Source of the DNA: Bacilli bacterium
GTDB lineage: Bacteria > Bacillota_I > Bacilli_A > ML615J-28 > CAG-698
Assembly: GCA_028693885.1 (NCBI GenBank)
Contig: JAQUUM010000009.1
Coordinates: 4,426 to 18,955 of the forward strand
Direction: 5' to 3'
DNA: 14,530 nt
Shown: piece after piece, positions 1,084 through 14,530 of the stretch
Numbering within the stretch: the first letter of the stretch is position 1
Layout: the number at the start of each line of letters is the position of its first letter
Position numbers and translations under genes: made by a program
Notes under the pieces: generated by a model
Databases searched by the model: none
What the model was told of the DNA's origin: nothing
Seen by the model: the letters and a program-made list of their open reading frames with translations, nothing else

Positions 1084-2414
1084 TTTTTATTGATTCTTTC
1101 TACTAACTTGTTCTTCAAATCTTCATACCCTTTTTTGCCAAGTAAAGCTAACATATTCTTTTTATAATCTTCAACACCTTCTTGATTAAAAGGATTAACA
1201 TCCAGTAAATAACCACTTACCCCGCAACTAAACATAAAGAAATATACTAAATATCCAAAACTATATGGAGTTATTTTTTCTAATTCAAGAATGATATTAG
1301 GAACTCCACCATCGACATGAGCTAAAACAGTTCCTTCTAAAGAATTTCTTCTTACAAAAGAAATATCTTTTCCTGCTAAGAAATTCAGACCATCTAAATC
1401 AGTTTCTTCTTTTTCTAAAATCTTATCGCTTTTAGCGTTCATTACATCTATTACAGTTTCAAACAAAATTCTTTGGCCATCTTGGACATATTGGCCCATT
1501 GAGTGTAAGTCAGTTGAATAAATCAAACTACTAGGGAAAATACCTTTAGTTTCTTTACCTTCAGATTCACCAAAAAGTTGTTTCCACCATTCACTTAAAA
1601 AATAAAGTTTGGGTTCATATGAAACTAACAATTCAATAACTTTACCTTTTTTATATAAGACATTTCTAATTGATGCATATAATAGAGCATCATTTTCTTT
1701 TAATGGTTTATTAACAAAATAATTATATGCATCAAGAGATCCTTTTAAGATTTCATCAATATCAAAACCAGCACAAGCAATTGGTAATAAACCAACTGCA
1801 GTTAATACAGAATACCTTCCACCAACATCACTCGGAATTGAAAAAGTTTGATAACCTTCTTCTACTGACATTTTAATTAATGCACCTTTTTCTTTATCGG
1901 TTGTTGCAAAAATTCTATTATTAGCCTTTTTGCCATATTTTTTAATAGCTAATTTTCTAAAAATTCTAAAAGCTAAGGCTGGTTCTATAGTTCCTCCTGA
2001 TTTTGAAATTACATTAATTGAAAAATCTTTATTCTTTAAATAAACTTCTAATTCACTAACATATTCAGGTGAAACATTATTTCCAACAAAAATTATTTCT
2101 AAATCCTTTTCACTACTAAAATATTTACCCAACATTTTTAAAGCTGCTTGAGCACCTAGATAAGATCCACCAATACCTATTACTACTAAAACATCACTAT
2201 CTTTTCTAATCTTTAAAGCTACTTCTTTAATTCTACTTAATTCAGTCTTATCGTATTCAAGTGGATAATTAACCCAACCTACATAATCATTTCCTTTACC
2301 AGTTTTATTTAACAAAGCATTTCTTGCATTATCTAATTCTTTTTCTAAAGCAAAAATTTCTGCTTCACTTATAAAGTTTAAAACATTTTTATAATTTAAA
2401 TTTAATACTTTCAT
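1080..2414 (-). CDS. pgi: Glucose-6-phosphate isomerase
   Basis: Interconverts glucose 6-phosphate and fructose 6-phosphate at the second step of glycolysis in the cytosol. The 444 residues match the usual bacillota-type length of about 450. Family signatures are present in order: GIGGSYLGA (80-88, sugar-phosphate binding), VISKSGGTIEPALAF (135-149), DVGGRYSVLTAVGLLPIA (196-213), GESEGK (282-287) carrying the presumed catalytic Glu283, STDLHSMGQYVQDG (300-313) with His304, and QEGVEDYKKNM (411-421) with Lys418. All key residues look intact. The ATG at 2414 overlaps the TGA of the S1 gene by four bases (ATGA) and has a strong GGGGGA ribosome site. Its own TGA overlaps the GTG of the next gene. 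It is the middle gene of a three-gene coupled operon driven by the promoter near 2776. Confidence 0.97.
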   Translation of the reverse strand: MKVLNLNYKNVLNFISEAEIFALEKELDNARNALLNKTGKGNDYVGWVNYPLEYDKTELSRIKEVALKIRKDSDVLVVIGIGGSYLGAQAALKMLGKYFSSEKDLEIIFVGNNVSPEYVSELEVYLKNKDFSINVISKSGGTIEPALAFRIFRKLAIKKYGKKANNRIFATTDKEKGALIKMSVEEGYQTFSIPSDVGGRYSVLTAVGLLPIACAGFDIDEILKGSLDAYNYFVNKPLKENDALLYASIRNVLYKKGKVIELLVSYEPKLYFLSEWWKQLFGESEGKETKGIFPSSLIYSTDLHSMGQYVQDGQRILFETVIDVMNAKSDKILEKEETDLDGLNFLAGKDISFVRRNSLEGTVLAHVDGGVPNIILELEKITPYSFGYLVYFFMFSCGVSGYLLDVNPFNQEGVEDYKKNMLALLGKKGYEDLKNKLVERINKK

Positions 2415-2752
2415 TTGTCTTCCCCCTTTTCTTGTTGGTCCTTTATGAAATCAGGTAATGCTCTAGCAAGTGATTTAAATCCTATATTAAATTTAGGAAT
2501 CTCACCAATTACTCCTCTTGTTTTATGCAAAGTTTTATACGTCAGTCTTAGTTTTTTTTCTGCTTCGTTAACATCTAATATTTTCAATTTTACTTTTTGA
2601 CCAATACTAACATAATCGTTTATATTTCTTACGAACCCATCAGAAAACTCTGATATATGAATTAATCCAGTATATTCATCTACTTGAACAAAAGCTCCAT
2701 AACCCAAAATATTTGTAATTACCCCAATTACAATTTCTCCTTTTTTTACCAT
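2411..2752 (-). CDS. S1-domain RNA-binding protein (YugI / general stress protein 13-like)
   Basis: A 113-residue protein with one S1 RNA-binding domain at residues 4-73: GEIVIGVITNILGYGAFVQV, then GLIHISEFSD, VSIGQKVKLKILDVNEAEKKLRLTYK. These are the standard S1 beta-barrel landmarks. A basic tail of about 40 residues follows. Small single-S1 proteins of this shape in Gram-positives (YugI, CvfD) associate with ribosomes or act as post-transcriptional regulators; the exact role here is inferred. It is the first gene of its operon. The ATG at 2752-2750 has ribosome site GAGGT seven bases upstream and lies about 17 bases from the predicted transcription start. Its TGA overlaps the isomerase start by four bases. 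In related bacteria a yugI-type gene also lies near pgi, which fits. Confidence 0.9.
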   Translation of the reverse strand: MVKKGEIVIGVITNILGYGAFVQVDEYTGLIHISEFSDGFVRNINDYVSIGQKVKLKILDVNEAEKKLRLTYKTLHKTRGVIGEIPKFNIGFKSLARALPDFIKDQQEKGEDK

Positions 2753-2775
2753 GATACATACCTCAACTTAAACAT

Positions 2776-2784
2776 ATTATACCA
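2776..2784 (-). promoter_or_regulatory. Extended -10 promoter of the S1-pgi-lipoprotein operon
   Basis: The minus strand reads TGGTATAAT, a perfect -10 box with the extended TGn motif. The -35 position is only a T-run, which is consistent with extended -10 promoters. Transcription should start near 2769, giving a leader of about 17 bases that begins with the ribosome-site stretch AAGTTGAGGT. Confidence 0.75.
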
Positions 2785-2844
2785 TATTTTACTATACAAA
2801 AAAAAGAAAAATCTTATTTTACTATTTTCACTCTAACTATATGC

Positions 2845-2871
2845 ATATTAGCCACTAAAAGTGGCTAATAT
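2845..2871. repeat. Perfect 12-bp inverted repeat (hairpin) after the DUF4143 gene
   Basis: ATATTAGCCACT and its exact complement AGTGGCTAATAT are separated by AAA. The stem is stable for this AT-rich DNA. It lies 26 bases after the stop of the DUF4143 ATPase gene and about 60 bases before the S1 operon promoter. Neither strand has a T-run directly after the stem, so it is not a textbook terminator. It could act as a U-tract-free terminator, an mRNA 3'-end stabiliser or a protein-binding palindrome. Confidence 0.7.
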
Positions 2872-2896
2872 ATATGTGTTGTTATAATTTTTTACT

Positions 2897-4153
2897 TTAA
2901 GGTTTTAAGCAACCAATTGGAACAACAAAAACTCCATCTGGTCTTTTATATGCAAATTCTCCTCCCGTAATAATCATTAAGAAAGATGGTTCTAATTTAA
3001 TGTCAACGACATTTTTAAGTTTGATTAAATTCTCTGCAGCCTTGTCTAACTCTTTTGTTCCTAACTTAATTTCAATAGCAGCCCATTTCCCATTATCTAA
3101 ATGAATTATTGAATCTACTTCTAATCCTGAACTATCTCTATAATGAAAAACTTTTCCATTTAAAAAGTCTGCATATACCCTCAAATCTCTGACTACCAAA
3201 GATTCAAAAAGCAGCCCAAATGTATTAACATTCCTAATTATATCTTCTGGTCCTACGTCTAATAAATTTGCGGGAATAGAAGGATCTATAAAATGCCTTG
3301 TATCTGACGTTCTTATCGCAGATTTACTTCTTAGCTTTGGATTCCATGCTTTTAAGTCTTCGATTATATATAAATCTTTTAATACATTTATGTAGCTAGA
3401 CAGTGTGTTTCTATGAATTAAAAAATTATTTACTTCAATATCTTTAATTAAGCTAACATCTGTTACTTGAGTTGAAGTATTTCTAGCTAGAGATCTTAAA
3501 ACTTGAAACATAACATTGGAGTCTCTCTTAATTCCATCTACTGTAAAGATTTCAACACTAGCTATGATATCCATATATCCTCTAACTTGTTTCCTTGCAA
3601 CGCTTAACGTTTCATCGATAGTACTAGGAAAACCACCTTTTACTATTAAATTAGCTATATCCTCTATTGATAGTTTTGACCTTGTAGGTTCAAACTCTGC
3701 CCCTTTAAATAAATCCTCAATGCTTACTTTCCCATTCGATGCTTTTGATTCATACAGTGACATAGTTCTCATTAATATTCTAGATATTCTACCCGCTCCA
3801 GAATGCGATATTTTTGATGAATCGACTTTTTGAGAACCCGTTAATATATATAATCCTTTCTCATTTTTATTATCTACATCATGTCTTATTGCATCCCAAA
3901 GGACAGGAGCCTCTTGCCATTCATCAATTAATAATGGCTTTTCTCCTTCAAGTATTAGATAAGGATTTAAATCTATCATATTAATATAACTTTCTTTTTT
4001 AAAAGGATCTTGCAAATTTACAATGGTTTTTGCTATTTTTTTAGCTGTTGTTGATTTGCCAGACCACTTTGGTCCAGTAATTAAAACTGCACCAAATGCC
4101 TCTAGTTCTTCTTTTAGGATTTTATCAAGTATTCTTTCATAGTATTTTTTCAT
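2897..4153 (-). CDS. AAA family ATPase with C-terminal DUF4143 domain
   Basis: A 418-residue ATPase of the widespread AAA_14/DUF4143 type. The N-terminal domain has Walker A GPKWSGKS (27-34), Walker B PLLIDEWQ (73-80), a sensor-like LTGSQ (104-108) and an arginine-rich SGAGRISRILMRTMSLYE segment (118-135). The C-terminal DUF4143 region has YINVLKDLYIIEDLKAW, the FESLVVRDLR helix and GLEVDSII followed by WAAIEIKLG; the spaced D and E-x-K resemble the PD-(D/E)xK nuclease fold noted for this family. No physiological substrate is established for the family. These genes are often singletons scattered in genomes and present variably among strains. Here it has its own consensus promoter, tandem repeats upstream and a hairpin downstream, and interrupts otherwise tight housekeeping operons, suggesting acquisition by transfer. 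The ATG at 4153-4151 has ribosome site AGGTGA. Both ATPase motifs look intact. Confidence 0.92.
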   Translation of the reverse strand: MKKYYERILDKILKEELEAFGAVLITGPKWSGKSTTAKKIAKTIVNLQDPFKKESYINMIDLNPYLILEGEKPLLIDEWQEAPVLWDAIRHDVDNKNEKGLYILTGSQKVDSSKISHSGAGRISRILMRTMSLYESKASNGKVSIEDLFKGAEFEPTRSKLSIEDIANLIVKGGFPSTIDETLSVARKQVRGYMDIIASVEIFTVDGIKRDSNVMFQVLRSLARNTSTQVTDVSLIKDIEVNNFLIHRNTLSSYINVLKDLYIIEDLKAWNPKLRSKSAIRTSDTRHFIDPSIPANLLDVGPEDIIRNVNTFGLLFESLVVRDLRVYADFLNGKVFHYRDSSGLEVDSIIHLDNGKWAAIEIKLGTKELDKAAENLIKLKNVVDIKLEPSFLMIITGGEFAYKRPDGVFVVPIGCLKP

Positions 4154-4578: not shown

Positions 4579-6675
4579 TTAATCTATTAAGATAGGTTCT
4601 CCTATACTACCTACATAATCATAAACATTATAAAAATTCAAAACTTCTAAAGTAATTGTTCCAATTAAAGTTAAACTATCATCTAATGCATTTATTACTA
4701 CTTCGCTATTAAAAATTGAATAAAGCTTAGAATTAACTACTACAGCTCTAGGACAGTCATAGTAATAGCTTGAATTATCTTGTTTTGAAATAAGTCCACG
4801 TAATGATATTTCTTCTGTTTCTTCATTAATTTCAATAACTGCGATGTATGTTTTACCACTGTAATTTGCATTGTAAATTGTAATAGGGAATATGTATAAA
4901 CTTTGACTTTCTAAAGTTATTAAACTCAAATGATTATATTGTACAGATGTATTACTATAATTTCCTTCAAAAAGATATACATCAACTTCTTCTAGTTCTT
5001 CACCACTTACTTTAAATAGAGAAACTTTGACTCCATTCAAAGTACCACTCGTAGTGCTAATAGAATTTCTACCAATTCCAACGATATAATCAGTACTATG
5101 AATATGTAAATAATCACTAACACCAGGAGATTTTAACTCACCTAATATAACTATATTAGTAGGGTCAGAAAAATCTATTTTATATAGTGGATCTATTTGT
5201 CTAAATGTTACTACATAACCTAGGGTTTTGTCAAATCTTACGCTATATATATTTTCATCTATACCAATACCGCCTAATGTGTCAAGTCTTTCAAACTTAT
5301 TATCAGATACATCAAACGTATGAACAAAACTTTCTGTTCTAAAACTGTTCATCCAGCTAGGGAAAATCGCAATCGTTGGAACACCATCACTTGTAGGTGC
5401 TACTTCAAGAGGTTCATAAGTTTGAACAGTTGAAGCAACTCTAAAGATTCCTTGGTATTCATCCATAGAAAATTGATCTTTAATATTTCCAGCAATAGTA
5501 GTTTTAGCTTTATAAGTTAATTTCCCCTCTTCAATATTAAATCTATAAATATTTGAAAAAGTAGCACCATATCTAGAATCAAATACTAACTCTGGAATCC
5601 TAAATACTTGATCACTATATTCTATAGTATTTACTTGATTAACAACATATAAGTTACTAGTAGATGCATAAATATTTCTAAAGTATCCTAAATATACTTC
5701 ATAGTTAATTTCTTCATTTGTTGTAACATCTAAAGAAGAAATAATATTATATGAATGATATCCTCTATACCCTCTCATAATATAAATTGATGAAAGAGGA
5801 GCTTCTACTTTTCCTTCTTTTTCTGTATCCATATAACCAGGAAGAGAAACATCTCCATCAGTTATTCTTACATTTTGATTTAAGACTAAATATAAACTAT
5901 TCCCAACCATACGAGAAGATACTAAATTAGAATCTTCATAAGTAACAGTTCTTAGGATTTCCATATTAGTCTTATCACTAACATCAATCACACTAACAAC
6001 TGTACTACTTGTTGCATAATAATAATATTCTACATCCTCATTTACTGTATCAGAATCAATAGCAGGTTCTATCATTGGCATATCATAATAATAATAAGGT
6101 TGATATGTTTTTCTCTCATAAAGATAACCCATCACTACTAACAAATTATCTTTTAAATATGCTTCTGATGGATAAAACTTATCAACTAAATCTATAACAT
6201 AAACACTATCATCAACACTATCAATAACGCTAATTTTTAAACCATTTATGATATATACATAACGATTGTCATTTTTAATAATATCAGCTTCATCAACACC
6301 TTTTACTTGAACATTAGTTTGACTTGACTCTCCACTAGTAACTGCATCACCAACTGCTGAACCACTATCTGATGCATCACTTGAAGGAGGAGGAGTTGCC
6401 GTTGAAAAATCAGCTGTTGGTGGAGAGACACGTGATAAATCAAATTCAACATTAGGGCTAGTTCCTTCCACTCCAAAAAAACTCGCTAAACCATCAAACC
6501 AATTTCTAGAAACTTCAGTTTCAACTTGAAACAACCCTTTAATCTCACTCACATCTTCAACTGACTTTAAATCAAAAGATTGATTTGTCACAAGATCTTC
6601 TGTTACCGCTTCTTTTTTACATCCAACAACAAATAAAACAACCAAAATCATTACAAAACTTAAAATTCTTTTCAT
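4579..6675 (-). CDS. Secreted beta-propeller domain lipoprotein
   Basis: A 698-residue surface lipoprotein of the 'beta-propeller domain' family (Pfam Beta_propel) known from bacilli and archaea. Residues 1-18 are a signal peptide ending in lipobox V-V-G-C (Cys19). Residues about 84-121 are a Ser/Thr/Pro/Gly/Asp-rich linker including TPPPSSDASDSGS. The family hallmark VKGVDEADIIKND starts at residue 124, followed by YVYIINGLKISVIDSVDD, the first blade. Many Tyr-rich beta-strand repeats follow (for example YVVTFRQIDPLYKIDFSDP), as expected for a propeller. The family's function is not known; extracellular binding or cell-surface interaction is a guess. The start is ATG at 6675-6673 because AGGGGA sits nine bases upstream and the lipoprotein signal begins there; a GTG at 6714 would add 13 residues, has no ribosome site and lies upstream of the predicted transcription start. 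First gene of a two-gene operon with the Nfu gene. Confidence 0.9.
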   Translation of the reverse strand: MKRILSFVMILVVLFVVGCKKEAVTEDLVTNQSFDLKSVEDVSEIKGLFQVETEVSRNWFDGLASFFGVEGTSPNVEFDLSRVSPPTADFSTATPPPSSDASDSGSAVGDAVTSGESSQTNVQVKGVDEADIIKNDNRYVYIINGLKISVIDSVDDSVYVIDLVDKFYPSEAYLKDNLLVVMGYLYERKTYQPYYYYDMPMIEPAIDSDTVNEDVEYYYYATSSTVVSVIDVSDKTNMEILRTVTYEDSNLVSSRMVGNSLYLVLNQNVRITDGDVSLPGYMDTEKEGKVEAPLSSIYIMRGYRGYHSYNIISSLDVTTNEEINYEVYLGYFRNIYASTSNLYVVNQVNTIEYSDQVFRIPELVFDSRYGATFSNIYRFNIEEGKLTYKAKTTIAGNIKDQFSMDEYQGIFRVASTVQTYEPLEVAPTSDGVPTIAIFPSWMNSFRTESFVHTFDVSDNKFERLDTLGGIGIDENIYSVRFDKTLGYVVTFRQIDPLYKIDFSDPTNIVILGELKSPGVSDYLHIHSTDYIVGIGRNSISTTSGTLNGVKVSLFKVSGEELEEVDVYLFEGNYSNTSVQYNHLSLITLESQSLYIFPITIYNANYSGKTYIAVIEINEETEEISLRGLISKQDNSSYYYDCPRAVVVNSKLYSIFNSEVVINALDDSLTLIGTITLEVLNFYNVYDYVGSIGEPILID

Positions 6676-6684
6676 TTTTTTTAA

Positions 6685-6690
6685 TCCCCT
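6685..6690 (-). promoter_or_regulatory. Ribosome site AGGGGA fixing the lipoprotein start
   Basis: AGGGGA on the minus strand lies nine bases before the ATG at 6675. The in-frame GTG at 6714 has no such site, so the shorter protein is the right model. Confidence 0.8.
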
Positions 6691-6692
6691 TT

Positions 6693-6726
6693 TACGTATA
6701 TTTTTATACTTCACTATATATACGTA
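6693..6726. repeat. 9-bp inverted repeat flanking the -10 region of the lipoprotein promoter
   Basis: TACGTATAT (6693-6701) and ATATACGTA (6718-6726) are perfect complements separated by 16 bases. One arm covers the likely transcription start and the other abuts and enters the -35 box. This placement suits an operator for a dimeric repressor, though AT-rich symmetry can arise by chance. Confidence 0.6.
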
Positions 6727-6753: not shown

Positions 6754-7887
6754 TTATTTTTTTACAAGCATTACTACACACTCTGATGCAATTCCTTCTT
6801 CTCTTCCAATAGCATCAAGTGTTTCATTTCTTGTTGCTTTGATATTTATTAAAGCACTATCACAATCAAGCAGTTTAGCAATGTTTTCTTTAATCAAATC
6901 TTTATAGTCTTTTAAGATAGGTTTTTCTAAATAAATTATTAAATCTAAATTATTAATAACATAGCCTTCTTTATCCATTAAGGTTTTTACTTCACTAACA
7001 AAATAAGACGATGCTATTCCTTTATACTTCACATCACTATCAGGAAACATCTTTCCAATATCTCCTTTACCTAAAGCTCCAATTATAGCCTCAGCTACAC
7101 TATGCAAAACACAATCAGCATCACTGTGCCCTAACAATCCTTTAGAATGTGGTATATTTATACCACCTAAAATTAATGGTCTATTTTCAACTAATTGATG
7201 AATATCTTTTGAGTGCCCAATTTTATACATCGTTTTTTCCCTTATAAATGCTTGAAGATCTTCTTGAGTAGTAATTTTGTAGTTATTATAAGATGCATCA
7301 ACTATTATAACCTTCCCTTTACCATAAACCATCAAAATCTCAGTATCATCCGTTGCATTGAATTTTTCTTCAATCGCTTTTTCAAAAGCTTCTTTATATA
7401 TCTTTGTAGGACCACCTTGTGGGGTTTGCATAGCCCACAATTTTTTCCTAACTAAGTTTTTAGTAATATAACCATCCTCGACTTCTTTAATGGTATCTTT
7501 ACTTTTTACAGCTAGAGAGGCTACTACATCTTCTTTTATAGTATTTACTATTTCTTTTATTAACTCTTTTGTTATATTAGGTCTAGCAGCATCATGGACT
7601 AATACATAAGGGCTCTTTACACATTTTAATCCATTATATAAACTATCCTGACGCTCTTCCCCACCTATAACAACTTTAACTTTAGAATATCCTTCTAGAT
7701 ATTTTGAAACAACTTCTTCTTCAAAATCGCGACATACAACATAAATCTGATTACAACCTTCAACTTTTAAAAAAGTTTCTAGAGAATACATAAAAATAGG
7801 TTTTTTAAGAACTTCAACTAAGTTCTTATTAATTCCTAAATTAAGTCTTTTTGAAGCACCTGCCATTAATAAAATAACATCAAACAT
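6754..7887 (-). CDS. ispDF: Bifunctional IspD-IspF enzyme of the MEP isoprenoid pathway
   Basis: A fused 377-residue enzyme carrying two non-consecutive steps of the methylerythritol phosphate pathway to isopentenyl diphosphate. The N-terminal half (about 1-218) is IspD, CDP-ME synthase: VILLMAGASKRL and NKNLVEVLKKP near the start, VHDAARPN (97-104), VKSKDTIKEV, LWAMQTPQGG. The C-terminal half (about 220-377) is IspF, MEcPP synthase: YKIGHSKDIHQL with metal ligands Asp228 and His230, GGINIPHSKGLLGHSDADCVLH with His254, KGDIGKMFPDSD, and the closing GREEGIA (361-367). Both halves look complete. The first glycine-rich loop reads MAGAS rather than the usual AAGxG, a small deviation. The start is ATG at 7887-7885, with GGAG six bases upstream inside the end of the previous gene; a TTG at 7899 would overlap that site. 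One base separates it from the cyclo-ligase stop. Confidence 0.95.
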   Translation of the reverse strand: MFDVILLMAGASKRLNLGINKNLVEVLKKPIFMYSLETFLKVEGCNQIYVVCRDFEEEVVSKYLEGYSKVKVVIGGEERQDSLYNGLKCVKSPYVLVHDAARPNITKELIKEIVNTIKEDVVASLAVKSKDTIKEVEDGYITKNLVRKKLWAMQTPQGGPTKIYKEAFEKAIEEKFNATDDTEILMVYGKGKVIIVDASYNNYKITTQEDLQAFIREKTMYKIGHSKDIHQLVENRPLILGGINIPHSKGLLGHSDADCVLHSVAEAIIGALGKGDIGKMFPDSDVKYKGIASSYFVSEVKTLMDKEGYVINNLDLIIYLEKPILKDYKDLIKENIAKLLDCDSALINIKATRNETLDAIGREEGIASECVVMLVKK

Positions 7888-7888
7888 T

Positions 7889-8404
7889 TTATTCTCCAAA
7901 TTCTACTATTCCTTTTTCAGTTACTAAGTAATCTACTACAATATCATGATCTTCTTTGAAAATAAAGTCATAAGCGAACTCACTATAAGTAATTCCAATT
8001 TTTAAACCTTTATATTCTTTTAAAACTCTATCATAAAATCCACTTCCATATCCTAATCTACCACCTAATTTATCCACAGCTAGACAAGGAATTACAATAG
8101 CTTCTAAAATGTTTAAATCTATAATTTCACCAAAAGGTTCTAGAATATTAAAATTACTTAGTTTTAAAAACTCTTTACCTAAAAATTTAGAAAATCCTTT
8201 TTCTTTAAAAATCGGTAAATATATTTCTTTATCCAACATTTCCCAATAAGGATCAAGTAAAGGTTCTTCTCTAATCGCTTTATATATCGCTATTTTTTTA
8301 AAGCCTTTTATAAGCTCAAACAAATTATCAAAAATAAGTTTATCTTTTAAAGCATCTCTTTTTCTTAATTCTAAAACATTTTTTCTTAGAGTTAGTTTAT
8401 CCAT
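7889..8404 (-). CDS. 5-formyltetrahydrofolate cyclo-ligase
   Basis: Converts 5-formyl-tetrahydrofolate to 5,10-methenyl-tetrahydrofolate using ATP, returning the stored folate to one-carbon metabolism in the cytosol. At 171 residues it is slightly shorter than the usual 180-200. Conserved landmarks: an N-terminal basic helix (LTLRKNVLELRKRD), the IAIYKAIREEPLL segment, FNILEP (85-90), AIVIPCLAVD (102-111), the signature GGRLGYGSGFYDR (114-126), and the HDIVVDYLVTEKGI end. The start is ATG at 8404-8402, with AAAGGT seven bases upstream; that site is built from the last codons and stop of the preceding gene. A TTG at 8434 would overlap the preceding gene by 26 bases and has no ribosome site. 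It is the middle gene of a three-gene operon between the GGDEF-like membrane protein and ispDF. Confidence 0.95.
   Translation of the reverse strand: MDKLTLRKNVLELRKRDALKDKLIFDNLFELIKGFKKIAIYKAIREEPLLDPYWEMLDKEIYLPIFKEKGFSKFLGKEFLKLSNFNILEPFGEIIDLNILEAIVIPCLAVDKLGGRLGYGSGFYDRVLKEYKGLKIGITYSEFAYDFIFKEDHDIVVDYLVTEKGIVEFGE
7894..7897 (-). promoter_or_regulatory. Ribosome site GGAG deciding the ispDF start
   Basis: GGAG lies in the last codons of the cyclo-ligase gene, six bases before the ATG at 7887. An upstream TTG (7899) would have its start codon adjoining this site and is therefore unlikely. Confidence 0.75.
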
Positions 8405-8408
8405 TAAA

Positions 8409-9860
8409 TTACCTTTTTTTAGTATACAAAACAAAATTCTTATTAAATCTCTTAGCTTCTTCAGTTGCTTCTAAAGCCGCTTTAACAGCTAACTCAGCTG
8501 ACTTAATCGGCAAAGTTGAAACCAAACAAATTCCTAAGGTTGGCTTTATATCAAATTTTTTATAATCGATAATAATATTAGCATTTAATAAATCAGATGT
8601 TTGTTTTTCTAAATCTCTAATTATTAAATGAAGGTCATCTTGTCTATTAACAAGCAATGCATAATCTGAATTATTCAATTTAAATACATTTAACTTATTT
8701 CTCAAAACACCATTATTAGCCTTTTGGAAAAACTTAATCAAAACAAGTGCAGCATAATCTTCTCCATATTTAACCTTAATATCTTCAATATGTTTAAAAG
8801 ACAATACAATCAACCCAAAATCATAACTGCTAAAAGACTTATTTATTGCTTTGATTAAATCATCATAAGCTTTGATTTCAACTTTGTTTTCACTTATGTT
8901 TTTATAATATCTAATGATATTATAAACTTCATTATCAAAAATATATGATCTATTTTCAAATAACTGAAATCCAGATGTTGTATGTAAGTTAAAATATCTA
9001 TTAGCCCCAGATACACAATCAACAAAATCAACTTGGTCTTCACTAAAAACAAATTCTTTAAATTTTTCAACTGTTAACATTTTTTTATCAATTCCAAGTG
9101 TTTCTTGCATTTTCGGAGTTAAAACAAATATCTTCTTGTATGAATCAAAATATGCAATCGGTTCATTAATTAAAGTCATATAATTGAAAAACCTTAAATC
9201 GTAAATATCCATAAATCTTTGGCGGAAGTTTTCAGTAATTAATTTTTGGTGATCTACTAAAATGTAACCAATTATCTCATTATTATATACTACTTCTTTT
9301 TTTACTATTGTTTTACTGATACTAGAATTATCTTCCATTATAATATTAATGTCAAAGGCATTACTATCATCTTGAAAAATATCAAAAAAATCTTTTGGTT
9401 TAAATTGTTTACCGCTACATTCAACAACCTTTAAATGACTAATCCATTCTTTAAAATTACTAATACGATTATAGTCTTTAAAAAATTCGCTGTTTATTTC
9501 AAGCGGTTTATATTTATAATCCAAATAAACTAAAATAGTAGTTTGTTCATAAAGAGTCGCATATTTAAAAACTCGATGTTTAGCTTTATATTTGACACCG
9601 ACTACTATCATTCCTAAAAGTGTAAGAACAACAATTAAATCACCACTACCAAATAAATAGTAATCGATATAAGGTGTTAAAAAACTAAGCGTATCACTCA
9701 TAAAAAAATAAACTACATATATTATTGGAAATAACAATACTAAAATAAAATCAAACAATAAAAACTTTTTAAAAATCATTAAAGATATTAATATTAATAA
9801 AAAGCTAACAGAAAAAGCTAATGTAAAAAAAACTAATGGAGTGTTATCTAAAAAAATCAT
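8409..9860 (-). CDS. Membrane PAS-like protein with degenerate GGDEF domain
   Basis: A 483-residue membrane signalling protein. Three hydrophobic segments (about 8-30, 34-54 and 72-90) are followed by two regions with PAS-like patterns: ILVYLDYKYKPLEINSEFF (about 109-200) and EPIAYFDSYKKIFVLTPKMQETLGI (about 225-320). Residues about 330-480 follow the GGDEF fold: FGLIVLSFKHIEDIKVKYGED, then VFKLNNSDYALLV where active cyclases have the GGDEF loop, and IKPTLGICLVST. The loop reads NNSDY, so diguanylate cyclase activity is very unlikely. The layout of membrane helices, PAS and degenerate GGDEF matches the N-terminal half of the cyclic di-AMP phosphodiesterase GdpP, but the DHH/DHHA1 part is absent and the following gene encodes a folate enzyme. 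A binding or sensing role is inferred. The ATG at 9860 has ribosome site GAGGT; the promoter lies at 9882-9910. First gene of the operon with the cyclo-ligase and ispDF. Confidence 0.82.
   Translation of the reverse strand: MIFLDNTPLVFFTLAFSVSFLLILISLMIFKKFLLFDFILVLLFPIIYVVYFFMSDTLSFLTPYIDYYLFGSGDLIVVLTLLGMIVVGVKYKAKHRVFKYATLYEQTTILVYLDYKYKPLEINSEFFKDYNRISNFKEWISHLKVVECSGKQFKPKDFFDIFQDDSNAFDINIIMEDNSSISKTIVKKEVVYNNEIIGYILVDHQKLITENFRQRFMDIYDLRFFNYMTLINEPIAYFDSYKKIFVLTPKMQETLGIDKKMLTVEKFKEFVFSEDQVDFVDCVSGANRYFNLHTTSGFQLFENRSYIFDNEVYNIIRYYKNISENKVEIKAYDDLIKAINKSFSSYDFGLIVLSFKHIEDIKVKYGEDYAALVLIKFFQKANNGVLRNKLNVFKLNNSDYALLVNRQDDLHLIIRDLEKQTSDLLNANIIIDYKKFDIKPTLGICLVSTLPIKSAELAVKAALEATEEAKRFNKNFVLYTKKR
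8411..8416 (-). promoter_or_regulatory. Ribosome site AAAGGT deciding the cyclo-ligase start
   Basis: AAAGGT overlaps the TAA of the GGDEF-like gene and lies six to seven bases before the ATG at 8404. It couples the two genes and rules against the upstream TTG. Confidence 0.65.
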
Positions 9861-9965: not shown

Positions 9966-10769
9966 CTACTTAAACGGAATATATTTGTCAAGCATCTCTT
10001 CAACTCTAGCCAGTGATAATTCTAAATTAATCACTCCATCTAAAGTAGTTGAAATGTTACCTGTTTCTTCTGATACTACGACAGTAAAAGCATCATATCT
10101 TTCACTAATACCAATAGCAGCTCTATGTCTTGTTCCTAAGAACTTTGGAACGTCAAATTTATCAGTTGATGGATAATAAGCTCCTGCACACATAATCTTA
10201 TTTTTTCTAATTATTACAGCCCCATCATGAGTGGCTGTCCCTTCTATAAAAAGTGATGATAGTAACTCAGCTGTAATATCTCCGTTAATAGTAATAGCCT
10301 TACCAATATAAGTATTAAGATTATCTTCTCTTTCAATTGTTATTAAAGCACCTATTTGTCTTTTAGACAAAAACTCAATTGTTTTCATGATGATATTAAT
10401 TAAGTTCTTTTTTTCTTCAACTGATGTAAAAGCATTATCTGTTTTACTAACTTTAAAAGAATTATCAATAAAGTGTTTTATATCTTGATTGTATACAATG
10501 ATAAATATTCCAAAACTCCAAAAAGCTAAAAACGATAAAATAGTAGCTGACATACTCAAACCTAGAATATAAATAACAGCATAAACTAAAAAGTAAGCAA
10601 AAATAAAGATGAAAATTCTAATAGCCTTTACTTTTTTTCTTAACAAAAAATAAAGTAATAGAATAACAATCGCTACTATTATCACATCAAAAACAAATTT
10701 TACAATTCCAGCAGCTGACCAATTATCAGTATATTCATTGATTATATCTATAAATTTATTTAAGTTCAT
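9966..10769 (-). CDS. cdaA: Diadenylate cyclase CdaA (cyclic di-AMP synthase)
   Basis: Makes cyclic di-AMP from two ATP at the cytoplasmic membrane; the nucleotide controls potassium and osmolyte transport in Gram-positives. From the ATG at 10769 the protein is 267 residues, close to the roughly 270 of Bacillus subtilis CdaA. Three membrane helices (about 25-43, 49-68 and 74-93) precede the DAC domain (about 110-260), which carries the two catalytic motifs intact: THDGAVII (DGA at 182-184) and GTRHRAAIG (212-220). An alternative GTG at 10778 would add three residues and overlap the ankyrin stop by four bases; the ATG is preferred because GGGTGA lies five bases upstream. cdaA normally stands beside cdaR (YbbR domains) and glmM. 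Here neither is present: an ankyrin-repeat gene lies directly upstream and a terminator directly downstream. Confidence 0.97.
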   Translation of the reverse strand: MNLNKFIDIINEYTDNWSAAGIVKFVFDVIIVAIVILLLYFLLRKKVKAIRIFIFIFAYFLVYAVIYILGLSMSATILSFLAFWSFGIFIIVYNQDIKHFIDNSFKVSKTDNAFTSVEEKKNLINIIMKTIEFLSKRQIGALITIEREDNLNTYIGKAITINGDITAELLSSLFIEGTATHDGAVIIRKNKIMCAGAYYPSTDKFDVPKFLGTRHRAAIGISERYDAFTVVVSEETGNISTTLDGVINLELSLARVEEMLDKYIPFK

Positions 10770-10774
10770 ACATT

Positions 10775-10780
10775 TCACCC
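10775..10780 (-). promoter_or_regulatory. Ribosome site GGGTGA deciding the cdaA start
   Basis: GGGTGA contains the GGTGA part of the anti-16S complement, includes the TGA stop of the ankyrin gene, and sits five bases before the ATG at 10769. It favours this ATG over the GTG at 10778 and links cdaA translation to the ankyrin gene. Confidence 0.6.
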
Positions 10781-11338
10781 ACTCTTCTTTAATATTTCTT
10801 TTAATCTTAAAAGTCTATCGCCATCTACTTTTTGTTTACTTAAAAAGTATTTTACTATTTTTATATCTTTTTCATCAATCGCATAATCAATTGGCAAGTT
10901 ATTCTTTTCATCTAACAATAAAATATCTGCACCGTGTTCTACTAAGTACTTTACAAATTCTAAATTCCCATTAATTACCGCTAAATGAAGTGGCGACTGC
11001 TCAAGTTCAGTCCCTAAATTAACATCACAACCACCATTAATCAAAGCTTTAACTAAAGCTAACTTATTCTCTCTTACAGCTTTGTGCAAAGGAGTATCAC
11101 CCAAATCATCAGCCAAATTTAAATTTATTCCACTTTTTATAAACACATTTAAAAGTTTTAAGTCATTAATCTTAACTGCTAAATGTAACAAGGTTCTACC
11201 TTGATCCATTTGAGTATTAATATCAATCTCATTTTCTTTGAATTTAAGTAGAGTACTTTTTATGTAAAAGTATCTATGTGGGTCTTGTTTAATTGCATAA
11301 ACAAATTCATTGAAAATCTTTTTGTTTCCACGTTTCAT
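10775..11338 (-). CDS. Ankyrin-repeat protein
   Basis: A 187-residue protein with four ankyrin-type repeats. Repeat 1 (about 46-78) contains GRTLLHLAVKINDLKLLNVF, repeat 2 (79-111) GDTPLHKAVRENKLALVKAL, repeat 3 (112-144) QSPLHLAVINGNLEFVKYLV and repeat 4 (145-168) the weaker NNLPIDYAIDEKDIKIVKYF. The TPLHLA and LL-x-x-GA(D/N)-x-N landmarks are clear. A charged N-terminal helix (1-45) and short basic tail flank them. There is no signal peptide or membrane segment, so it should be cytosolic. Ankyrin repeats bind proteins; the partner is unknown, and the encoded neighbours (helicase-like protein and CdaA) are the first candidates. The ATG at 11338 overlaps the TGA of the helicase-like gene by four bases and has ribosome site AGGTGA; its own TGA lies within the cdaA ribosome site. 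Translation of the three is probably coupled. Confidence 0.93.
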   Translation of the reverse strand: MKRGNKKIFNEFVYAIKQDPHRYFYIKSTLLKFKENEIDINTQMDQGRTLLHLAVKINDLKLLNVFIKSGINLNLADDLGDTPLHKAVRENKLALVKALINGGCDVNLGTELEQSPLHLAVINGNLEFVKYLVEHGADILLLDEKNNLPIDYAIDEKDIKIVKYFLSKQKVDGDRLLRLKEILKKSG

Positions 11339-14300
11339 AATTCACCTGTTATTCTTTTAACAACTTCCTTAACATCAATTAATATTTCTTCAATCGTTAC
11401 TATAAATACTTTAATTTCATGCTTTTGATATTCTTTAACAAAATATCTAAAATCATTTAACACTTCATATCGCAAGTTGTCAAAAGTCCACAAAATCATA
11501 ATTCCTGATATTTTTTCATTGTATTTAATCATTATGTCTAAATCATCATGTCTACCTAGGACTTCAATTCCAGATAACTGTAGAGCTTTAGCTAATTTTA
11601 AAACTGCTTTATTATCATATTTATAATCAAAAGATTTTATATCATTGATATACTTATTTAGTTTCTCCGAAAGCAAACTTTTTTTGTTTAAAAAATTATT
11701 GCTGTCATAAATCCAAACTTCTTTTTGAACTAACATTAACATATCAATAACTAAAGCAGCGCTATGTTCTTTATCTATGTCATGATAACATTCTAAAGTT
11801 AAAACATTATAATCGCTTTTCACTAAATAATAATCCAGCGCATCACAAATATTAATGTTATAAGTTAGAATCTTAAAAATCCTATAACCACTATAACCTT
11901 TTTTTATAAAAGCAATTGCAAGCTTCTCATAAAAATCTTTCATTTTAGCAAGTGATGCAATATAGACATTTATTTTTAAATCTTCATTGTTTTGAAGAAG
12001 CATAACAATTTTTTCTTCGAGTTTTTGTTTAACTACAGTGATACCTTTATTCTCAACTAAACTATTTTTTATAATCCCACTTGAATTACCACTATGTTCT
12101 AATAAATTCTTAGGAACCGAATTATAAGAACGCGTAAAATGTAAAATGTTTTTTTCTTTCATTCTAGATAACAAGGTATTAGCACTAAAACTTTTCTTAG
12201 GCTCTTCACCAGCAATAATAACCTGGCGCCCCATAATTGCTTTATAATACGCTTCAGCTTCTAATGCATAAGCATCATCAATTATTACTAAATCAAAAGC
12301 ACTACTTTCAAAGAAATTATTTAATACCTCTGTATCAGTTAAAAAAATCTTTTTATTAGTAGATTTAGAAATAAGTCCTACATAATCTAAATTCTTTAAA
12401 TGTTTTTTACCTTCTAAAATACGATTATAATTCTTTAATAAACTTGACTGATTTTCTTCAATCAATTGCCTTTCTAAACTATATGCTTTTTCCAAAGCAT
12501 CTTTTAACTCATTATTAGAAAGTAAAGTAATCTTTTCTTTAAACATCTCATATACCATTAAATAATATGTATATTTAAAATTATTAACTAACTTTCTAAT
12601 ATTTTTTTCTTCAAGACAACTATTAACTAACTTAGTAAGATTATATTTTAAAATCTTTTTAAAGTGTTTAGTAATTGTAAGGTAAATTCCTAATTCCTCT
12701 TTTGCTTCTAACTTTTTATCCAAAATACTTAAATTATAATCAAAAGTCTCATAATAATATTTAGATACTACACCTTTAAATGTTTTACTATAAGTTTTTA
12801 AAACATCATTTGCGTCTTCAGCTACTTCTCTTAGATAACTTAACTGAAGATTTATCTTATTATAATTTTTTAAATCCAGACTATTAGCAGCCGCTTCAGG
12901 ACCTATAAAACAATTAACAAAATTATCTAATGTCTGAATCAAATTACTTATTTTATCAACATCTGTTTTAGTACCATTAAATAAATTGTCAAATAATTCC
13001 TTATATGTTTTATTATTATCAAAGTTTTTTTCAAGTTTATTAATATAATCAATATCTGATTCAATATTGAAAAAATCTTTGCTTGTAATAACTTCATTTT
13101 TAACTTGCTTACTAGTTGTCTTTACTTTATCACTACCATAATATATCTTTGATAAATATTTAAAAATCAACGATACTTTTTCTAATTTCTCATAATACGA
13201 ATTATATTTAATATCAAAATAATAATCCCCTAATTCTTCATATAGAATATCTAAATCATCCATTGATTTAAGCAATAAATTAAATGTTTGAATCGGAATA
13301 TCAATTTTTGAATATTTAAAATATACGGACCTTAAATACTTAACAAAAGTTTCTTTATATTTAGGATTTATATTATTAATATATTCAAAGCATTTTTCAT
13401 AATCTTTGATTATATCAACGTCTACTTGAAAATTAAATCCTGTTTCTTCAAAGAAAATATTTTTAGCTTTATTATAATTTTTTCTTAAATATTTTAATTT
13501 TTCAACTATTATTTTTAGATTATTAGGGCCTAATTTTGACTTCCTAATAACCGAAGCTAACTTCATGTCGCTTTTTTCAATTTTTCTTGATTCAATTATA
13601 TCATCAATTACCTTAATTATATAATCAGAATCCTTATAGGCAAACTTTTGAAATTGGTTAATAAATTCTTTTTTTACTTCATCCAATTCTTTCAAATGAT
13701 TAAAACTATCTTTAATCCTTTTTAATTTATATTGAAATTCATTTTCAGTTTCTATATCCAACCACCAAGCATGATAAACATATTGACTTAAAAACCTACT
13801 TAATCTAACAATTTCTAAAACAAATTCATCAGTTTTATCATTTTCAGCTTCTATAAATTGAGCGATCTTTTCAATTGTTTTAAAAATAATCCCTCTTTGA
13901 ATTTCACCTCGATTAATTTTTGGTTCCAATATATTTCTTTTTTCAAAAAGAAAATCTATTTTATCAATTTCATTTTTACTAAACTGATAACTATATAGTT
14001 GTTTTATTTCTAACTTTATATCTAGTTCTTCAAGTTCAAAATATTTAGAATTTAAAAAATCCCTAAAATTCTTTATTTCAAGATAATCTTTTTTTAGATC
14101 AACAAAAACTTCTCTTGCTTTAAAATACATCTCTAAAGAATTATCAACCCAAAAACTTAAAACCTCATCATATTTTAATGATTTGAAATTATTAATAACA
14201 TTCCTTAGTGAAGCATAGTAAGTAATTGGTTTAAATCCATATTTTTTTTCTAATGCTTTGGCTTCTTCTTGCATTTGAGTATAGAATGATTTCATTTGAA

Positions 14301-14530
14301 ACACTAAATTAATAACTTGATTAGGGAAATTAACATTATTGTTTATTGGGATATTACTCCAAATACTATCTTTAAAAGAAGGTATTTTATCAAATAGTAT
14401 TGTAGCCATTTCTAAACTATGAACAGTTTTTTCAAACTCTTCTTTATATAAATTACTCAAATCATCAATTTCTATCTTCTTAGAGTTTTTCTTATCAAAA
14501 CTAACTAGACTGTTCATCACCAAAAGATAA
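11335..14530 (-). CDS. Degenerate superfamily I helicase-like protein, probably 5'-truncated by the window edge
   Basis: A very long reading frame with no stop before the right edge. The first possible starts (TTG 14523, GTG 14520, ATG 14517) lack a clear ribosome site, so the gene probably continues upstream. Residue numbers count from 14523. Residues 1-700 are helical, Lys/Glu/Asn/Ile-rich and mostly coiled-coil-like. Residues 706-800 resemble the motif II/III region of DUF4011-type SF1 helicases: FDLVIIDDAYALEAEAY (743-759, family form FD-x-VI-F/I-DEASQ), RQVIIAGEEPKKSF (766-779, family form QV-x-x-xGD-x-KQLPP), then FTRSYNSVPKNLLEHS (family form HYRS...LI-x-FSN). Later come VYIASLAKMKDFYEKL (853-868) and VLTLECYHDIDKEHSA (907-922), where the family has QGDERD. 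Residues 970-1050 look like the C-terminal nuclease-fold domain without its acidic residues. No P-loop is visible. The protein may be a non-catalytic scaffold. The family link is a judgement by eye. Confidence 0.72.
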   Translation of the reverse strand, partial: YLLVMNSLVSFDKKNSKKIEIDDLSNLYKEEFEKTVHSLEMATILFDKIPSFKDSIWSNIPINNNVNFPNQVINLVFQMKSFYTQMQEEAKALEKKYGFKPITYYASLRNVINNFKSLKYDEVLSFWVDNSLEMYFKAREVFVDLKKDYLEIKNFRDFLNSKYFELEELDIKLEIKQLYSYQFSKNEIDKIDFLFEKRNILEPKINRGEIQRGIIFKTIEKIAQFIEAENDKTDEFVLEIVRLSRFLSQYVYHAWWLDIETENEFQYKLKRIKDSFNHLKELDEVKKEFINQFQKFAYKDSDYIIKVIDDIIESRKIEKSDMKLASVIRKSKLGPNNLKIIVEKLKYLRKNYNKAKNIFFEETGFNFQVDVDIIKDYEKCFEYINNINPKYKETFVKYLRSVYFKYSKIDIPIQTFNLLLKSMDDLDILYEELGDYYFDIKYNSYYEKLEKVSLIFKYLSKIYYGSDKVKTTSKQVKNEVITSKDFFNIESDIDYINKLEKNFDNNKTYKELFDNLFNGTKTDVDKISNLIQTLDNFVNCFIGPEAAANSLDLKNYNKINLQLSYLREVAEDANDVLKTYSKTFKGVVSKYYYETFDYNLSILDKKLEAKEELGIYLTITKHFKKILKYNLTKLVNSCLEEKNIRKLVNNFKYTYYLMVYEMFKEKITLLSNNELKDALEKAYSLERQLIEENQSSLLKNYNRILEGKKHLKNLDYVGLISKSTNKKIFLTDTEVLNNFFESSAFDLVIIDDAYALEAEAYYKAIMGRQVIIAGEEPKKSFSANTLLSRMKEKNILHFTRSYNSVPKNLLEHSGNSSGIIKNSLVENKGITVVKQKLEEKIVMLLQNNEDLKINVYIASLAKMKDFYEKLAIAFIKKGYSGYRIFKILTYNINICDALDYYLVKSDYNVLTLECYHDIDKEHSAALVIDMLMLVQKEVWIYDSNNFLNKKSLLSEKLNKYINDIKSFDYKYDNKAVLKLAKALQLSGIEVLGRHDDLDIMIKYNEKISGIMILWTFDNLRYEVLNDFRYFVKEYQKHEIKVFIVTIEEILIDVKEVVKRITGEL

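Follow-up and report, generated by a model that had tools for sequence, protein, structure and literature searches.

A superfamily 1 helicase-derived protein with one apparently dismantled motor half is encoded beside the diadenylate cyclase gene cdaA across an order of Bacilli

We analyzed a 14,530-nucleotide stretch of DNA (hereafter, the window) from a Bacilli bacterium (GenBank assembly GCA_028693885.1, contig JAQUUM010000009.1, positions 4,426 to 18,955), the reverse strand of which encodes the C-terminal part of a giant protein resembling superfamily 1 (SF1) helicases, followed by an ankyrin-repeat protein and CdaA, a membrane diadenylate cyclase producing cyclic di-AMP (c-di-AMP). We found that the helicase-like protein represents a new family which is core to the order of the source genome and specific to it. 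As judged from its sequence, the family descends from DUF4011-AAA_11-AAA_12-MTES_1575 SF1 helicases, and its erosion is selective, one motor half being seemingly retained and the other lost. The presence of such a "half-dead" helicase beside cdaA hints at a possible built-in sensor or controller of the cyclase.

Distribution and Linkage to cdaA

The helicase-like gene was detected in all 43 genomes of the order (22 genera, two families; lowest best match of 261 bits), including 24/24 of those of high quality. Outside the order, the best match reached only 74.9 bits in 352 genomes of the class and 81 bits in 381 genomes of the phylum, these two samples being partly overlapping. Matches at E ≤ 1e-10 occurred in 71/352 class genomes, all of them at or below 74.9 bits and mostly around Walker A, while 5/381 phylum genomes gave matches at E ≤ 1e-20, none of them above 81 bits. 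Such matches were rejected as family members, the six that were fetched being canonical DUF4011-type helicases by their motifs. The 15 loci taken from a named collection all come from metagenome-assembled genomes labeled Acholeplasmatales, Tenericutes, Bacilli and similar. No description of the family was found in the open-licence literature on CdaA, ankyrin, Acholeplasma, DUF4011, PDC-S37 and c-di-AMP in Mollicutes.

In the window, the ankyrin gene (10775..11338, reverse strand; 187 amino acids; Ank_2, 5.1e-27) directly follows the helicase-like gene and overlaps both its neighbors by a few bases. Next comes cdaA (9966..10778, reverse strand; DAC, 2.4e-36), the product of which carries the DGA and RHR motifs; the c-di-AMP synthase that the initial annotation had placed two genes downstream is thus indeed there. 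The gene cdaA is present in 43/43 genomes of the order, as the single cyclase gene in 41 of them, and the helicase-like gene lies upstream of it, on the same strand and with profile matches at most 1.6 kb apart, in 42/43. As genomic linkage, therefore, the tie to the cyclase proposed at the outset holds; in the sole exception (G031) the contig ends within the ankyrin gene. The latter directly follows the helicase-like gene in 41/43 genomes (in G016, in one of two copies). The gene junctions are tight, ranging from -62 to +6 and from -80 to +19 bases in 37 loci (with starts chosen mechanically), and pairwise distances of the helicase-like protein correlate with those of cdaA (r = 0.92) and of the ankyrin gene (r = 0.86; 37 loci), as vertical descent predicts. 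Among 42 cyclases, RHR is found in all and DGA in 39; both motifs are described in a passage of PMC8573169 as required for ligand binding.

We probed further neighbors in 34 loci (14 + 20, partly from the same genomes), and in all 34 the helicase-like gene and cdaA are adjacent. This adjacency is kept even in L105 and L106, both from a single genus, in which all other probed neighbors have disappeared. L055, L056, L105 and L106, which represent genomes G035 and G036, lack the ankyrin gene and have rearranged surroundings, the helicase-like gene and cdaA still being adjacent.

Neither the helicase-like nor the ankyrin gene was found in 19 cdaA neighborhoods from nine other families, some of which reach only 2 kb upstream. 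A ribonucleotide reductase gene adjoins cdaA in 4/19 of these neighborhoods and is located beside the triad, or one gene from it, in 8/15 loci of the order. The helicase-like and ankyrin genes were thus probably gained beside cdaA in an ancestor of the order. Of the giant genes lying beside cdaA in one other family (f22), two were scanned and rejected as counterparts: the one in L069 encodes a YfhO membrane protein and the one in L086 gave no significant family match. As for CdaR, it was undetected in 41/43 genomes of the order. In the other two it adjoins extra cdaA copies on separate contigs (C47 and C71 of G012, C214 of G016), and with listed contamination of 5% and 6% for these genomes, the contigs are probably contaminants.

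Gene Extent and Motif State

The helicase-derived frame comprises 1064 codons (11335-14529, reverse strand), about three quarters of the gene counted from its C-terminal end, and is open up to the window end, in agreement with the more than 1,060 open codons reported initially. The last base of the window is also the last base of its contig (C9, position 18955), and the gene is thus cut by the contig end. The final 127 bases of C9 recur at the start of another contig, C179, which carries the 5' part of the gene (locus L004). We kept the two contigs separate and numbered residues after the database protein P0001, which differs from the window in a few residues and sets the full product at 1416 amino acids; the frame, P0001 and C179 together assign residues 353-1416 to the window. 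The initial annotation, which saw the protein up to position 14530, had neither the N-terminal domain nor Walker A in view. Walker A (GKLGTGKT, residues 248-255), read on C179, turned out to be intact.

For comparison, we used six intact relatives (L063-L068), helicases from three other families of the same class, four of which were scanned for domains and carry DUF4011, AAA_11, AAA_12 and MTES_1575. Each of DEAS, GD..Q(L/M)P and YRS is present in 6/6 of them, and QGDERD and the T-R of motif VI are invariant. The family alignment itself holds 46 sequences (six database proteins and 40 loci), some of them near-duplicates, and its counts are not independent; the database protein P0002 was excluded, as were L036, L039 and L045, whose copies are short or broken.

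In the RecA1 half, the Q-motif glutamine and the Walker A lysine are kept in 45/45 members covering them (in L025, one glycine is replaced by N). Walker A and Walker B are separated by about 855 residues in P0001 vs. about 600 in L063, and the large insertion between them, of which the window holds residues 353-1080 (12346..14529, boundary approximate), is helical in the structure predicted for a relative. It is the least conserved large segment (median pairwise identity of 0.188), while the second half of RecA1 (residues 1081-1175; 12061..12345, boundary approximate), recognized by its hhalign match to intact helicases, is the most conserved (0.330). Walker B reads FDLVIIDDAY (residues 1097-1106; 12268..12297), with D1103 in 46/46 and D1104 in 45/46 members; a Walker B with the catalytic glutamate (DE) occurs only in L054, which reads DEAQ, all others having D-D. 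At the position of motif III (GEEPKKSF, residues 1126-1133; 12187..12210), G1126 is found in 46/46 and is followed by E in 24 and D in 14, and a pattern search over the last 45% of each protein retrieved GD..QLP/QMP in 0/46 members vs. 6/6 intact relatives. At the position of motif IV (FTRSYNSVP, residues 1150-1158; 12112..12138), the column of S1153 holds R in 41/46 members, the alignment here being possibly one residue off, with an R adjacent. The altered readings DDAYA, AGEEPKKSF and TRSYNS given initially are therefore present (in DLVIIDDAYA, AGEEPKKSF and TRSYNS) where the intact relatives have DEAS, GD..Q(L/M)P and YRS. The change in Walker B is family-wide, while the loss of the motif-IV arginine is not.

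The C-terminal half is of a different character. The same pattern search found canonical motif VI in 0/46 members, and over residues 1160-1416 only N1206 and Y/F1379 are identical in at least 38/46, no R or K being invariant. No QGDERD-type match was found at the site of the RecA2-like domain (residues 1176-1310; 11656..12060, boundary approximate), which was recognized by its predicted fold and is unalignable in sequence with the intact relatives (1.2%). The earlier equation of YHDIDKEHS with QGDERD finds no support, as RecA2 alone fails to align and hhalign puts QGDERD elsewhere. In the nuclease-like C-terminal domain (residues 1311-1416; 11338..11655), assigned by hhalign to the MTES_1575 region, the IMLDG-type acidic position reads IMILW and the first acid is D in only 19/46 members. 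This end thus looks inactive, lacking a catalytic acid, and the claim of a missing acidic triad was correct in substance.

With the Q motif and Walker A kept and the C-terminal half variable, the nucleotide site seems to have been retained while the half supplying the arginine finger drifted. The initial view that every visible motor motif is eroded is thus largely upheld yet too strong, applying to motifs III and VI and to the DE pair and failing for the Q motif and Walker A; of Walker A, DEAS and QGDERD, whose intactness would by its own account have counted against it, only the first was found intact.

Descent, Predicted Structure and Selection

P0001 matches the NCBIfam models antiphage_ProA (NF058533; 6.3e-23, 80.2 bits) and Hhe (NF042953; 8.9e-8, 30 bits) far under their cut-offs of 1500 and 2000, respectively, and PADLOC PDC-S37 at 1.3e-26. 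Pfam AAA_11 and DUF4011 match it below cut-off as well (DUF4011 with 16.1 bits vs. 22.2). The STAND NTPase model nSTAND_NTPase5, with a cut-off of 34, gave 16.5 bits for P0001 and 33.9 for the best of six members, around Walker A only. Profile comparison with hhalign of 18 members against the six intact relatives yielded a match spanning the C-terminal third through to the end (99.7%, E 2.9e-25). Taken by segment, the N-terminal domain scored 95.4%, the first and second halves of RecA1 99.5% and 97.0%, the nuclease-like end 92.5% and RecA2 1.2%, with reversed controls at or below 1.4% (0.3% for the second half of RecA1 and 0.6% for the nuclease-like end). The proposed DUF4011/AAA_11-AAA_12 ancestry is thus upheld by the profile matches and by four of five segments.

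The RecA2-like segment is nevertheless predicted to fold, and its model matches RecA2 of SF1/SF2 proteins. Two RecA-like domains are present in the predicted models, and the structural matches include HelD and Upf1, which is consistent with the SF1 RecA fold expected from the outset, although Foldseek alone gave weak results with this protein's own C-terminal model.

The whole-gene ratio of nonsynonymous to synonymous substitution rates (dN/dS) is 0.053-0.319 in 9/9 close pairs, pointing to purifying selection. The Walker B segment ranks lowest or second lowest in 8/9 pairs, once the saturated RecA2 of L048-L050 is set aside. That the frame is not decaying, as first stated, is confirmed, and a pseudogene was rejected for the family. 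Two broken copies were encountered, one in G019 (L015/L039, frames of 773 and 562 amino acids), which reflects either recent loss or an assembly error, the other being the database protein P0002, truncated to 951 amino acids.

Proposed Role and Alternative Explanations

With the Q motif and Walker A in 45/45 members and D-D in Walker B, the protein probably still binds ATP and may hydrolyze it slowly. We tentatively propose, at a probability of roughly 0.4, that an SF1 helicase has been domesticated here as a switch which binds ATP without translocating and acts on CdaA, a coupling deduced from gene context. In such a scheme, the protein would bind ATP, hydrolyze it slowly or never and be incapable of translocation. 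Binding of ATP, and perhaps of nucleic acid, would alter its shape, and this state would be passed to the membrane-bound CdaA, either directly or with the ankyrin protein as intermediary, whereby c-di-AMP synthesis would be raised or lowered.

Several observations weigh against this proposal. The ankyrin gene is absent from the locus in G035 and G036, where a search found none elsewhere, which means that its product is not needed everywhere, and the exact DGA string is missing in 3/42 cyclases. In G019 the helicase-like gene is interrupted, with the ankyrin gene and cdaA intact. The gene which we take to be ispDF lies downstream in 27/34 probed loci, some of which are too short to show it; gene order is thus conserved in general, and adjacency alone overstates the functional link. 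Finally, CdaR is present in only 115/352 class genomes outside the order, and being mostly undetected in the class too, its absence calls for no substitute, which weakens the idea of a unique replacement of CdaR.

General conservation of gene order, along with the structural matches to HelD and Upf1, would also suit an ATP-binding nucleic-acid, RNA-polymerase or ribosome factor of the HelD/Upf1 sort, whose operon with cdaA is historical and entails no action on the cyclase. We regard this as rather unlikely, given the linkage in 42/43 genomes and its persistence in L105 and L106. A still-active motor or ATPase with unorthodox motifs could be read from the kept Q motif and Walker A, the motif-IV arginine in 41/46 members, the DEAQ of L054 and the predicted RecA2 fold, but is improbable: no invariant arginine finger was seen in residues 1160-1416, and motif VI, with its invariant T-R in 6/6 intact relatives, is matched in 0/46 members. 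There is similarly little chance that, instead of regulating the cyclase, the protein acts downstream of it as a c-di-AMP or ATP receptor. It shares an operon with cdaA and its ATP site could accept an adenine dinucleotide, but a Pfam scan of six members detected no known c-di-AMP binding domain. A phage-defense module, with the helicase-like protein detecting infection and c-di-AMP serving as the alarm, is highly improbable even though antiphage ProA, Hhe and PDC-S37 are related in sequence, as the scores fall far short of the cut-offs for ProA and Hhe, the gene occupies one locus in 43/43 genomes with distances tracking cdaA (r = 0.92), unlike patchy defense genes, and a large DUF4011 gene can, according to a passage of PMC10250203, be core elsewhere too; on the same distribution, ordinary defense was rejected as the present role, though it is possible as the origin.

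The proposed switch bears on which signals reach CdaA-type cyclases outside CdaR/GlmM systems. Should the two proteins act together, the helicase-derived one would be a c-di-AMP regulator of a new type, as well as an example of how a defense-type helicase can be domesticated by dismantling one motor half.

Neighboring Genes

The gene after cdaA in the window (8409-9860, reverse strand) encodes a degenerate GGDEF domain (21.6 bits, cut-off 23.8) with apparent N-terminal membrane helices. Similar genes follow cdaA in many of the compared related loci, and this gene may also belong to the c-di-AMP locus. Some members of the order have a small gene with an MGS-like domain directly after cdaA (L005, 15802-16170; L008, 15642-15992). 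The presumed ispDF gene (6754-7899, reverse strand) is a single frame here and two separate frames in several relatives, indicating fusion or split. Further along the reverse strand are found a beta-propeller protein gene (4579-6714; PF09826, 1e-105), with no match in the compared related loci, and an AAA_14/DUF4143 ATPase gene (2897-4153), with none in L005-L019, which is likely an insertion. Upstream of the helicase-like gene, L004 encodes a 735-amino acid repeat-rich protein (1708-3915, reverse strand) with repeats of leucine-rich type by eye. A Clp-type AAA+ ATPase gene (L007, 5583-7535) occupies an upstream position in 19/34 loci, on the opposite strand in L090.

Comparison With Known Systems

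The closest known proteins are the DUF4011-AAA_11-AAA_12-MTES_1575 helicases (ProA, Hhe, PDC-S37), with which the family shares domain order and homology in 4/5 segments. It differs from them in having D-D for D-E, no GD..QLP, no motif VI, an unrecognizable RecA2, a lost nuclease site, a longer insertion and a fixed place beside cdaA. Upf1-like SF1 helicases (IGHMBP2, Sen1/Senataxin, Upf1, Aquarius) are working motors with canonical motifs, in contrast to the family, in which motifs II, III and VI are altered and no counterpart of motif V was recognized.

Other systems resemble the present one only in the way they work. In Bacillus subtilis, disA is located directly behind radA/sms, and the helicase RadA/Sms binds and inhibits DisA, as told in a section of PMC8573169; published abstracts also report c-di-AMP synthesis by DisA to be suppressed on DNA structures. 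There, too, a helicase gene is positioned directly upstream of a diadenylate cyclase gene. However, RadA belongs to a different family and works as an active helicase, and DisA is soluble, while here the cyclase is the membrane protein CdaA and an ankyrin gene lies between. The helicase-like protein might be a captured defense-type helicase turned into an ATP- and nucleic-acid-sensing switch which controls the order's only cyclase, CdaA, usually via an ankyrin adaptor. It would then be a trans counterpart, assembled from unrelated components, of the RadA-DisA coupling to the state of DNA; in this full form the idea is unlikely. CdaR and GlmM are described, in parts of PMC8573169 and PMC13289029, as operon-encoded partners tuning CdaA, a setting shared by the helicase-like protein insofar as it is encoded with cdaA (42/43), but they show no sequence relation to it and are encoded downstream of cdaA instead of upstream. 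In Hachiman, the helicase HamB is a sensor which restrains its partner enzyme, according to an excerpt of PMC12278908. The Foldseek match to HamAB is weak (8vx9, 3.4e-4, TM 0.13-0.14), and the system differs from ours in that HamB is an active helicase and its partner a nuclease.

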